Source: Urbifossiella limnaea
GTDB taxonomy: Bacteria > Planctomycetota > Planctomycetia > Gemmatales > Gemmataceae
NCBI RefSeq assembly: GCF_007747215.1
Contig: NZ_CP036273.1
Coordinates: 3,270,322 to 3,334,321 of the forward strand
Length of the DNA: 64,000 nucleotides
Direction: 5' to 3'
Below are positions 8,028-18,884 of this stretch, piece after piece. Position 1 is the first letter of the stretch. Every line of letters starts with the position of its first letter. The notes beneath the pieces were generated by a model that saw nothing but the letters and a program-made list of their open reading frames with translations, was not told the origin of the DNA and made no database searches. The translations under genes and the position numbers were made by a program.

Positions 8028-9038
8028 TCACAGCGGCGGGAGGGGCGGCAGGTCGGCGAGGCGGCTGCGCTTCCGCGGTAGCTCGAAGCGGAACGGGTCG
8101 CCTTTCGTGCCGCGGCCGCACTGCTCGGCCAGGCCCTCCCGCACCGCCCGGTGGAGCCAGCCGTACAACTGCTGACTCGACGGCGCCGGCCGGTCCTCCG
8201 GCCACGTCGCCAGCAGGTCGCGGACGCTCGCCGCCGTCGGCCGCCCGGCCAGGAGCCGCCGCACCTCCTCCCAGTTCTCGCGGAACCGGGCGTCGGCCCC
8301 GTCGGCCACCACCCGGAACTCCGGCGTCCCCACCACCCACTCGTACACCACCGACTCCGGGGCCGACGGGTGCCGCGACCGCACCGTCAGCCGGCGGCGG
8401 TTGGCGTCGGACGCGAGCCGGCCGAAGCGGCCCAGCTCCAGCGTCGCGTCCACGTACCCCAGCAGCACGCCGCTGCCGCGCGCGGCGCTGCCGTCCTCCG
8501 ACTTCTCCTTGCGGGGGTGGTGGAGCACCAGCACCGCCGTGCCGCCCTCGGCCAGCCGGCGGAGCGGGTGGAGGAAGTCGAGGAGCGCGCCCGGGTCGCA
8601 GTCGCTCCGGCCGGGGAGGAAGGTGGCGAGCGGGTCCACGACGAACAGGTCGATCGGGGTCTTCGCGCGGTCGTCCTCCGCGGCGCGGACCAGGGCGGCC
8701 CACTCGGCCGCGGTCGGCCGGCCGGGGAACGGGCGCGACACGAGCCGCGTGCGCTGGCCGCACGGGATCGCGGCCCGGCGCGCGGCCCAGTGGTGCCGCG
8801 CCTCCTCCGAGACGACGACGGCGTGGCCCGGTGCGGTGGCCCGGCCGAGGAACGGCTCGCCGGCGTCGAGGGCGCGGAGGAGGCCGGCGAGGAGCGTGGT
8901 CTTGCCGGTCTTCCACACGCTGGTGAGGAGGGCGACATCCCCGCGGGCGAGGAGCCCGTCCCAGAGCCACCCGGCGTGGGCGTCGGGAACGGGGTCAACG
9001 TGGTCCAGCAACTCCGGGGCGTAGGCGGTGGTGCTCAT
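8028..9038 (-). CDS. Orphan RecA/RepA-like AAA ATPase
   Basis: P-loop ATPase of the RepA/AAA_25 type: GDVALLTSVWKTGKTTLLAGLL gives a Walker A at about residues 40-48, IDLFVVDPLATFLPG a Walker B, and VLVLHHPRK the downstream strand with the HH signature. A C-terminal helical region (residues 245-336) resembles the winged-helix tail of such proteins. I chose ATG 9038 (336 residues) because it has a good GAGGAAG ribosome site 7 bases upstream; the frame continues open upstream through a repeat. Relatives occur in phage-, plasmid- or element-borne DNA-processing loci; no helicase, primase or integrase partner is next to it. Confidence 0.72.
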   Translation of the reverse strand: MSTTAYAPELLDHVDPVPDAHAGWLWDGLLARGDVALLTSVWKTGKTTLLAGLLRALDAGEPFLGRATAPGHAVVVSEEARHHWAARRAAIPCGQRTRLVSRPFPGRPTAAEWAALVRAAEDDRAKTPIDLFVVDPLATFLPGRSDCDPGALLDFLHPLRRLAEGGTAVLVLHHPRKEKSEDGSAARGSGVLLGYVDATLELGRFGRLASDANRRRLTVRSRHPSAPESVVYEWVVGTPEFRVVADGADARFRENWEEVRRLLAGRPTAASVRDLLATWPEDRPAPSSQQLYGWLHRAVREGLAEQCGRGTKGDPFRFELPRKRSRLADLPPLPPL

Positions 9039-9059
9039 GATGTGACTTCCTCGAACGGA

Positions 9060-9125
9060 CTTTTTTATGAGTCGGTGACATGTTTCCGCGAATCGACCCC
9101 CCTCGGCCGGAAACAATGATCGCCG
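9060..9125. repeat. 65-bp two-copy repeat, copy A (leader of the ATPase gene)
   Basis: Bases 9061-9125 match 18737-18801 at 60 of 65 positions, in the same orientation (TTTTTTATGAGTCGGTGACATGTT... through ...CGGCCGGAAACAA). In copy A it ends 22 bp upstream of the ATPase start, so on the minus strand it forms the gene's 5' leader or promoter. Substitutions are scattered and there are no gaps, consistent with selection on the sequence or a recent duplication. Confidence 0.85.
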
Positions 9126-9496
9126 CTGGAGCGAGCGGGAAGAATGTCGGTTGAGCCTGAATTGGCACGCGGGCTGCATTACTGGATGTGGGCGGGGCAT
9201 GAGAGTCTGGATCGAATGGGCGACGATCCAGACCCGTGCCCCGCCTCTTTTCGTTTTCGCAGCCGCACTGCCTGCGAAATCCCCCACGAAAACTAGCAAT
9301 TACGCCTCGAAACCGTGAAAGAACGGCCGGGCACGTTCGTTTTGTCGTGGGTGCCACGGCGGGCGTGTTGAGCAACACACTGCCGAAAAATGGGAAGTGA
9401 ACTGCCGACTCGGGCGGGTGTCACGAACCGCGGGTTCGCGCGAGACACAACGGTCGGGCGGCGGTATGCTGGCGGCACCCTGCACCGGGAGCCGTC
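9126..9496. other. Gene-free region with a two-part hairpin
   Basis: No coding frame here has recognisable content. The notable structure is an inverted repeat in two blocks, GGCGGGGCA (9191-9199) with TGCCCCGCC (9237-9245) and TCTGGATCG (9206-9214) with CGATCCAGA (9224-9232), followed on the plus strand by TCTTTTCGTTTT. That is the form of an intrinsic terminator or structured RNA read rightward. The rest appears to be promoter space for the divergent ATPase and VPS10-like genes. Confidence 0.5.
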
Positions 9497-15200: not shown

Positions 15201-15704
15201 GCCGCGGGCAAGTCGGCCGACAAGCTCGCCCCGTGGGCCGAGGCGCTGGCCGGCGGCGACGCGGCCCGCGGGCGGAGCGTGTTCCTGAACAACAACGCCG
15301 TGTACTGCCAGCGCTGCCACCAGCTCGACGGCCAGGGCGGTGAGGTGGGGCCGGCGCTAAATGGCATTGCCGCCCAGCCCGGCAAGGACCGCCGCTACCT
15401 GCTCGAAGCCGTCGTGCTGCCGTCGGCCCAGATCGCCAAGGGGTTCGAGACGGCCGTCGTGACGCTGGCCGACGGCCGCGTCGTGAGCGGCGTCGTGAAG
15501 GAAGACACCCCGCAGCAGTTGAAGCTCGTGACGCCCGAGAACCGCGAACTAGTCATCCCGAAAGAGGAGATCGAGGGCCGCCGCACCGGCCCGTCGGCGA
15601 TGCCGGAGGACCTGCACCCCAAGCTCACCCGCCGCGAGCTGCGCGACCTGGTCGAATTCCTCGGCAGTCTCCGCGACCCCGCCCCGAAGGGAGGCCGCCC
15701 GTGA
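12264..15704 (+). CDS. PVC-type c-haem membrane-bound dehydrogenase-like protein with HEAT repeats
   Basis: A 1146-residue exported protein with signal peptide at residues 5-25. The domain order is typical of the planctomycete/verrucomicrobial PVC family: an N-terminal six-bladed propeller resembling soluble sugar dehydrogenases (residues about 45-450, e.g. VAFAFDEQGRAYVAETTRFG and SGLRNPQELAFDDLGNL), a long HEAT-like helical array (about 475-960), and a C-terminal cytochrome c domain with C1015-Q-R-C-H1019. The last part (VTLADGRVVSGVV...ELVIPKEEIEG) is the conserved haem-domain tail. It probably moves electrons from a carbohydrate oxidation in the periplasm; the substrate is unknown. A Uma2 gene is coupled to its end. 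Confidence 0.85.
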   Translation: MTPPARLIAAAFACLLAAGVVATAVPPDQIDGPAGSGGKGSAEEALVTVQIEKGLKVGVWAAEPLMANPVAFAFDEQGRAYVAETTRFGNGVPDTRSHMKWLDEDLANRSIADLLAMYQKHKYQGFEKYSDQLRVVWDSTGKGRADKSGVFSGGYNRAQDGLAAGVLARRGSVYFACIPDLYRLKDTKGTNTADVKESLFTGFGPTAQFLGHDLHGLRMGPDGRLYFSIGDRGFNVTTKEGKQLSYPNTGAVLRCEPDGSNLEVVHSGLRNPQELAFDDLGNLFTYDNNSDSGDQARWVYVVQGGDSGWRGGYQYGTLYHPPGTPQGNRGPWNVEKMWLPISPTSEPPAFVVPALANFGSGPAGLTHYPGVGLNDKYRDHFFACDFTSSPSSRIWAVAVKPKGAGFEVAKHEPFVRGMVPTDCEFGPDGAFYWSDWTGGWNPPNKGRIYRVTDPEAMKNPAVGEAKTLLAAGFEKRDTAELLKLLGHPHQQVRTEAGIELGARGADNAVANGLTAVAATSKDRLSRVHAVWALGIVGRQHSHAIARLTGLVTDADAEIRAQVFRTLDSFPHLPHVLASVLSRGCTDADPRVRAFAAAAFRRLDRPIAVITPGSEAERVVPLLEVLKANADADAYLRHSAVVGLVGQTADSRELARMWAAVRDRYDVPAVRLGVVLALRRHRGAELAGFLADPDAKIAAEAARGVYDERIAGALPALAALSDGSRPDPIAYRALAANYVLGTPEAVGRVARFAARTTEPDHQRVFALKLLADWTSPPRRDPITGLTHDLPRRDSAPVAAALRPLLAGVFAGSDAVRAEATQVTAKLGITEVGPLLSAVVRDEKASPGDRADALAALVAVKAANLAEMTSYALASPLPRLRAAGLTAKAKADPAAVLRDVPGLVRDDKTSVAEKQAALAILGKAGETAEGDKLLSELLATATAGKGQTDILLDVLEAADARAKGKAKLHAALKQDASTYRTAAGKSADKLAPWAEALAGGDAARGRSVFLNNNAVYCQRCHQLDGQGGEVGPALNGIAAQPGKDRRYLLEAVVLPSAQIAKGFETAVVTLADGRVVSGVVKEDTPQQLKLVTPENRELVIPKEEIEGRRTGPSAMPEDLHPKLTRRELRDLVEFLGSLRDPAPKGGRP

Positions 15705-18493: not shown

Positions 18494-18504
18494 ATCCCAC
18501 CGAG

Positions 18505-18575
18505 TTGGGGATCTAGGATTCGAACCTAGACTAACTGAGTCAGAGTCAGTCGTGCTACCGTTACACCAATCCCCA
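18505..18575 (-). tRNA. tRNA-Gln (anticodon CUG)
   Basis: On the minus strand a full cloverleaf is present: acceptor stem TGGGGAT/ATCCCCA, D-arm GGTGTAACGGTAGCAC, anticodon stem ACTGA/TCAGT around loop CTCTGAC giving anticodon CTG, and T-arm CTAGG-TTCGAAT-CCTAG. The discriminator is A and CCA is not encoded. This tRNA reads CAG, the favoured Gln codon in GC-rich genomes. Confidence 0.96.
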
Positions 18576-18735
18576 GCGGTTCTGACTCAACGCCGGCATC
18601 TTACTCACAACTTCCGCGGTCGGCAAGGTCGCCTCCCACGGGCCGGCAGGTCGCGTCCCGCGCGGGAACCCGACGAATCCCTTGATGTCGATCATGGTTC
18701 CGGCACAGTTGGGCACTTCGACTCGTCGGAACAAA
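18576..18735. other. Spacer upstream of tRNA-Gln, no gene supported
   Basis: This stretch contains the promoter region of tRNA-Gln (minus strand). A 44-codon minus-strand frame starting at 18695 runs into the tRNA itself and is not credible as a gene. The part next to the repeat (GACTCGTCGGAACAAAC) weakly resembles the leader of the ATPase gene next to copy A, hinting that an ATPase relative once stood here. Confidence 0.4.
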
Positions 18736-18801
18736 CTTTTTTATGAGTCGGTGACATGTTGCCGCGAATCGACCCACCCCGGCCGGAAACAAGAATCGCC
18801 G
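18736..18801. repeat. 65-bp two-copy repeat, copy B
   Basis: Matches copy A (9060-9125) at 60 of 65 positions without gaps, same orientation. Here it lies about 160 bp upstream of tRNA-Gln (on the tRNA's strand) and about 85 bp upstream of the divergent dipeptidase start. No ATPase gene is attached to this copy. Confidence 0.85.
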
Positions 18802-18884
18802 TGCGAGTGTGGTTGGGAATGGACGTGCCCGCCGGCCACCGGGGCGGTATTCTCACCGTGCCTCCCCGCCGCCGAGACACCGCC

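Follow-up and report, generated by a model that had tools for sequence, protein, structure and literature searches.

Two stretches of the window, the 64,000-nucleotide piece of DNA that was analysed (positions 3270322-3334321 of a single planctomycete-like chromosome of 7,795,793 bases, 7.8 Mb), belong to a palindromic element dispersed through intergenic DNA, hereafter family 1, which is present in 43 copies. Copy A forms the leader of a gene for an AAA_25/winged-helix ATPase. The leader of a paralog of this ATPase belongs to a second dispersed family (family 3) and has the same place and orientation as copy A. The best joint explanation, which we consider probable, is that the AAA_25/winged-helix ATPase at copy A is the partner protein of family 1.

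Family 1 and its two copies in the window

The sequence-only reading had drawn attention to a 65-bp repeat, and its 60 ungapped matches out of 65 were confirmed. Searching the same genome with the 65-mer gave 40 places with E values of 1.5e-27 to 4.1e-14, far beyond chance. A 20-base anchor, TTTTATGAGTCGGTGACATG, was found at 43 places when up to three mismatches were allowed; 36 of these are exact, none has three mismatches, and the backwards control gave 0. A 90-column profile built from the 43 copies re-finds them at 68-95 bits, while the next match lies at 45 bits. Around the anchor, positions from about -20 to +62 are strongly conserved and those out to -67 and +72 weakly; beyond these limits conservation is absent, so that the unit has a core of about 80 bp and weaker arms extending to about 140 bp. 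The limits first given to the repeat hold for the core; the weaker outer conservation falls outside them.

The right half of the element contains a palindrome, TGTTTCCG-N19/20-CGGAAACA. Exact pairs of its arms occur 24 times in the genome, all with a spacer of 19-20 although spacers of 4-30 were allowed, and the control gave 0. The conservation profile of the family shows this central palindrome without sharp paired ends. The coordinates of the two copies and of the neighbouring features are collected in Table 1.

Table 1. Features at copies A and B of family 1 (window coordinates)
Feature	Position	Strand	Description
Repeat pair	9061-9125 (copy A) and 18737-18801 (copy B)		ungapped identity 60/65 bases
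Copy A, family 1	9043..9135	+	core 9043-9125, weaker right arm to 9135; left side is the ATPase gene leader
Copy A palindrome	9081..9115	strandless	TGTTTCCG-N19-CGGAAACA
Copy B, family 1	18672..18811	+	core 18719-18801; between tRNA-Gln and M19 dipeptidase gene
Copy B palindrome	18757..18791	strandless	TGTTGCCG-N19-CGGAAACA, one arm altered
tRNA-Gln	18504-18575	-	about 160 bp from copy B
AAA_25 ATPase gene led by copy A	8028..9038	-	336 aa; Pfam AAA_25 E 1.2e-19; RecA-like core in model
ATPase C-terminal part, predicted winged helix	8073..8312	-	pLDDT 83.8; winged-helix Z about 10; best Foldseek E 0.016

Copy A lies directly upstream of the AAA ATPase, as had been noticed from the sequence: the anchor begins 24 nt from the start of the gene at 9038 on the minus strand. 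The description of copy B as adjoining tRNA-Gln and having no ATPase was also borne out, since tblastn with three ATPases found neither an ATPase-like stretch nor an ATPase remnant near it. Two further statements about copy B were not upheld. The similarity of its flank proved to be about what base composition predicts (ungapped matches of 16/60 on the left and 19/60 on the right), and instead of a decayed ATPase leader it is an ordinary member of the family, scoring 84 bits with the family profile. The plus strand between copy A and the following gene also carries a long inverted repeat at 9189-9252, GGCGGGGC...GTGCCCCGCC, followed by a T-rich run. Judged from its sequence, it resembles a strong terminator or the end of a small RNA; this region is 85% conserved over 95 bp in a congener (G001).

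The 65-mer had no match in 40 relatives. A profile search of 94 other genomes belonging to the same taxonomic family, five of them congeneric, gave no full copy of family 1; under stricter filters, five of the 94 each gave one weak partial match (E 0.006-0.008). Palindrome pairs were limited to two single pairs in these 94 genomes, both with other spacings. The exact core had no match in a collection of 84,980 species, in which the genome under study may itself be absent. About ten further sites of this genome (L085-L094, L098, L100) share the palindrome and have a different, GTCATTCTGGCCGCG-like left arm, and therefore represent a sister class. At one site of the sister class (L092), two elements lie back to back about 160 bp apart.

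Gene context and folding of the copies

With a simple gene finder, all copies except one were placed between genes (42/43): convergent gaps hold 13 of them, same-direction gaps 22 and divergent gaps 7. The gene finder used a home-made hexamer model, and raising its threshold from 12 to 25 shifted the classes slightly. The lower threshold gave 14 convergent, 6 divergent and 10 and 13 same-direction copies; the higher one gave 13 convergent, 7 divergent, 9 and 13 same-direction copies and one copy overlapping a gene call. For most of the non-divergent copies (30 of 35) a stop codon is no more than 30 nt away; both orientations occur, and 21 of the 22 same-direction copies are closer to the stop than to the start side. 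The gaps that hold a copy are longer than control gaps, with medians of 189 versus 31 for convergent and about 260 versus 85 for same-direction gaps. This excess equals roughly one element length or a little over, which is what insertion predicts. The pattern is that of an inserted DNA element persisting at gene ends and not of a strand-specific leader.

The 86 flanking proteins were compared with Pfam. Among the 25 of 201 families listed, none was matched by more than four of these proteins, and no transposase or AAA ATPase family was matched by two or more. A shared function of the host genes was rejected on the first of these results. A transposase parent beside the copies was likewise set aside to the extent that no transposase family among those listed was matched by at least two of the 86 proteins; one matched by a single protein may have gone unlisted.

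Folding of family 1 as RNA was hardly better than that of shuffled sequences (mean z of -0.7 and -0.8 for the two strands). The consensus fold, calculated from 37 of the 43 copies after exclusion of the six without the left arm (L033, L036, L037, L039, L048 and L054), showed almost no covariation. A short local pairing of positions -8 to -1 with positions 6 to 13 had a mean probability of 0.67. No Rfam family matched the copies. An RNA element was rejected because no structure clearly exceeded the shuffles and Rfam gave no match to the copies. Elsewhere in the window, a mir-8229 match to Rfam at 15449-15495 was below the cut-off and away from the copies.

The ATPases and the repeats at their leaders

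The ATPase at copy A is predicted to consist of a RepA/DnaB-like core followed by a winged helix. The model of the whole protein, made with three sequences in the input, has a pLDDT of 70.5 and a RecA-like core. For residues 8-242, the best VIA-align row was RSF1010 RepA (Z 16.7, 209 aligned, rmsd 4.1, 17% identity), with which chains of DnaB, Rad51 and KaiC tie in Z. The predicted fold of this part is shared with RSF1010 RepA and RecA-like hexameric ATPases; the differences from RepA are the low identity and the extra predicted C-terminal winged helix. An 80-residue C-terminal part, modelled alone, forms three helices and a hairpin and matches Zur, LmrR and Z-alpha at the Z given in Table 1 over nearly the whole domain, while the Foldseek E-values for this model are weak. 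A winged helix usually binds nucleic acid.

One paralog of the ATPase (6,624,289-6,625,275 of the same genome, L125) has 62% identity to it; it was found in the approximately 2.0 Mb of this genome that was searched, and further paralogs may therefore exist. One homolog, with 58% identity, is present in a Fimbriiglobus MAG. A search for phage, plasmid or viral-contig homologs gave no match, and a phage or plasmid origin of the ATPase was rejected on this basis. PHROGs matches were mostly to the helicase core, and PADLOC gave a single weak match, for the paralog. No match was found in NCBIfam, nor in the PDB by sequence.

Family 3, to which the leader of the paralog belongs, has 18 copies in the searched sequence, 17 of them within the 1.6 Mb sampled, which extrapolates to about 83 genome-wide. 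The count was made with a regular expression allowing up to four mismatches. This gave 25 matches, 24 of them in the 1.6 Mb (unfiltered extrapolation 117), and seven that looked by eye like chance matches were dropped (L119, L124, L216, L238, the second in L255 and two in L258). The 80 sampled stretches were hand-picked and hold no family 1 copy, and are therefore not a random sample for family 1. Of the repeated intergenic motifs assembled from the sample, family 3 is the longest; some shorter GC-rich words are commoner. Very frequent 14-mers were also seen in the 80 stretches, for example GACGGTGACGGTGA (30 places) and CCACGTCCGAGATC (29), and probably come from repetitive coding sequence.

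The two families are homologous, with an alignment score of 31.5 versus a maximum of 16.5 in 1000 shuffles. The leaders of ATPase A and of its paralog align at 22.5, a score reached by none of 500 shuffles, and the next best of 291 upstream regions scored 16.5. Against their own families the leaders score 68 (A) and 66.5 (paralog), versus 19 and 15.5 against the other family. Each ATPase is also the nearest of the genes transcribed away from a copy on that side. For ATPase A the distance is 24 nt and the next 65 (20 such genes among 43 copies); for the paralog it is 66 nt and the next 84 (7 such genes among 18 copies). A family 3 match in the ATPase orientation was present in 3 of 1226 upstream regions (the ATPase with 64, the L112 gene with 61 and a third with 24), and one in the opposite orientation in seven of the 1226. 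By eye, the L112 gene reads like a transporter.

The leader of the Fimbriiglobus homolog carries a palindrome, TTGATTCCGG...CCGGAATCA, before the start codon and in the same orientation. This leader scores 19.5 when aligned with that of ATPase A (the best of 300 shuffles gave 18.5) and 18.5 against family 1, a moderate similarity that 0 of 300 shuffles reached. It has no likeness to family 3, for which 201 of 300 shuffles reach its score, and no clear likeness to the leader of the paralog (13.5). Two of the ATPases come from the roughly 2.0 Mb searched in the genome under study and one from elsewhere, so that the pairing rests on three loci. From these alignments, the link between ATPase and repeat appears hard to attribute to chance.

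In 8 of 13 cases (hand-filtered), a right-hand gene that points away from family 3 starts 131-148 nt from the GACTC box, and the copies in L103, L111, L112, L116, L120, L199 and L211 belong to this start-distance cluster. A promoter role of family 3 at the clustered starts is possible.

Explanations of the pairing and related systems

We infer that the most likely working is that of an autoregulated ATPase recognising the palindromes. The ATPase would bind the palindrome of its own family through the C-terminal winged helix, would use the leader copy to control its own gene and would also act at the dispersed copies. The copies may have spread by duplication and insertion, REPIN-style, and may have been kept mostly at the 3' ends of genes, where they would be least harmful or useful. 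That the ATPase might itself mobilise the copies is speculative. A more general version, which we hold to be rather unlikely, is a transposase-free REPIN-like system in which planctomycete RepA-like winged-helix ATPases each own, and perhaps spread, a genome-wide palindrome family. The palindromes would then start from the ATPase's own leader and be set down just after stop codons, and protein and repeats would change together from species to species.

To our knowledge, no gene partners of short palindromic repeats are better described than the RAYT transposases that go with REPs. If the present pairing is real, a second type of gene would be matched to such repeats one family at a time, and a new partner open to testing would be at hand: a RecA-like ATPase carrying a predicted DNA-binding domain, together with a likely autoregulatory site and either 43 or about 83 sites in the genome. 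The longest of the intergenic repeat motifs assembled from the sample would then also acquire a meaning.

Three other explanations were weighed. That the repeat is a promoter or leader common to the members of a multi-copy ATPase family, with copy B as a decayed member, was the proposal of the sequence-only reading. One part of it stands, in that copy A does lead an ATPase and the paralog is led by a homologous second family. However, only one of the 43 copies found in the whole-genome search leads an ATPase, so family 1 does not serve as leader for an ATPase family with many copies; tblastn with the three ATPases detected none within 3 kb of the other 42 copies, and copies with no link to ATPase genes, the outcome named beforehand as refuting the proposal, speak against it, as does the assignment of the paralog's leader to a different family. 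We consider it very improbable. A transcription terminator or other 3'-end signal, bidirectional and independent of the ATPase, would suit the abutment of 30 of the 35 non-divergent copies on a stop codon, the T6 run and the strong conservation of the anchor sequence. It is nevertheless improbable, given folding near shuffle level on both strands with almost no covariation, a T run that does not adjoin a strong hairpin and the seven copies in divergent gaps.

The copies might also be ordinary REP/MITE-like repeats moved by an unrelated transposase, those at the ATPase genes being chance insertions or a meaningless inherited leader. Palindromic, multi-copy, intergenic and mostly 3' of genes, family 1 has the features of the REPs described in an excerpt of PMC3733652, and the genome contains three Y1-transposase (Y1_Tnp) genes, one of which lies about 1.2 kb from a family 3 copy with one gene between. 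Against this, the family 1 copies nearest to the three genes are 98, 172 and 350 kb away, and GTAG, CGTC or CTAC was found within 12 nt of either palindrome arm in 0 of the 43 copies (one has GACG). The repeat that adjoins the Y1 gene near 118.4 kb is a different one, and that the two paralogs have leaders from different, homologous families is not easily put down to chance. We therefore regard this explanation as doubtful, and a RAYT-driven REP was rejected for family 1 because the Y1 genes are distant and the tag is absent. The Y1 gene near 118.4 kb (118405-118851 of the genome, L101:4905-5351, minus strand) encodes 148 aa, and an adjoining palindromic repeat, CAGGCCGAAGGCCTGGGAGCCCTCAGCCCAGGGCAA, gives it what is, to judge by sequence, a classic RAYT/REP layout.

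Having no RAYT partner, no tag and only distant Y1 genes, family 1 is REPIN-like in layout and is not a member. It shares with REPs and REPINs the form of an extragenic multi-copy palindrome (43 copies, 42 intergenic, fixed spacing), but no Y1 (RAYT) gene is flanked by a family 1 repeat, the nearest being 98 kb away. MITEs are a class of small non-autonomous insertions near genes. Family 1 likewise looks like small non-autonomous insertions near genes, with longer gaps where a copy is present, but its inverted repeat appears, from the conservation profile, to be central and not terminal. MITEs are mentioned in the excerpt of PMC3733652. The same excerpt places REPs mainly downstream of coding regions and reports CGTC REPs without a dedicated transposase. 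Family 1 resembles these GTAG- and CGTC-tagged REPs in consisting of extragenic palindromes mostly 3' of genes; it differs in that the tag is absent in 43/43 copies and, compared with the REPs of that excerpt, in its longer conserved unit of about 80-140 bp. In the REPIN/RAYT system, as an excerpt of PMC3116915 describes it, every RAYT paralog has a separate REPIN group next to it. The likeness to this arrangement lies in short, palindromic, intergenic, many-copy repeats with different groups beside different paralogs of one gene family. Here, however, an AAA_25/winged-helix ATPase stands in place of the Y1 transposase, its gene has the repeat as leader, and the REP tag is absent. Nothing on the repeat or on the ATPase-repeat pair was found in the open-licence text of PubMed Central.

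The congener G001, with 81-84% identity over long matches, was compared at three loci. At locus A, G001 retains the flanks and shows only weak similarity in the syntenic stretch (16.0 vs a shuffle maximum of 14.0); no ATPase was detected in the stretch examined. At locus B the match ends after the RNA-ligase gene. In the gap that corresponds to L028, a family 1 site, G001 has another inverted repeat (L149:1515-1615), formed by AGTGTGGTGCGGCACTCCGTG and its complement about 60 bp apart. A pattern search of the five congeneric genomes gave 16 matches, at least four of which appear by eye to be protein-coding (L186, L190, L191 and L196). Six of the seven matches in G001 were tested by alignment with families 1 and 3: L183, L188 and L195 align with one or the other beyond 1000 shuffles, and L193, L194 and L197 with neither. 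With element-like sites of its own, G001 suggests, at few loci, a superfamily that seems older than the species and of which each species has its own sequence version.
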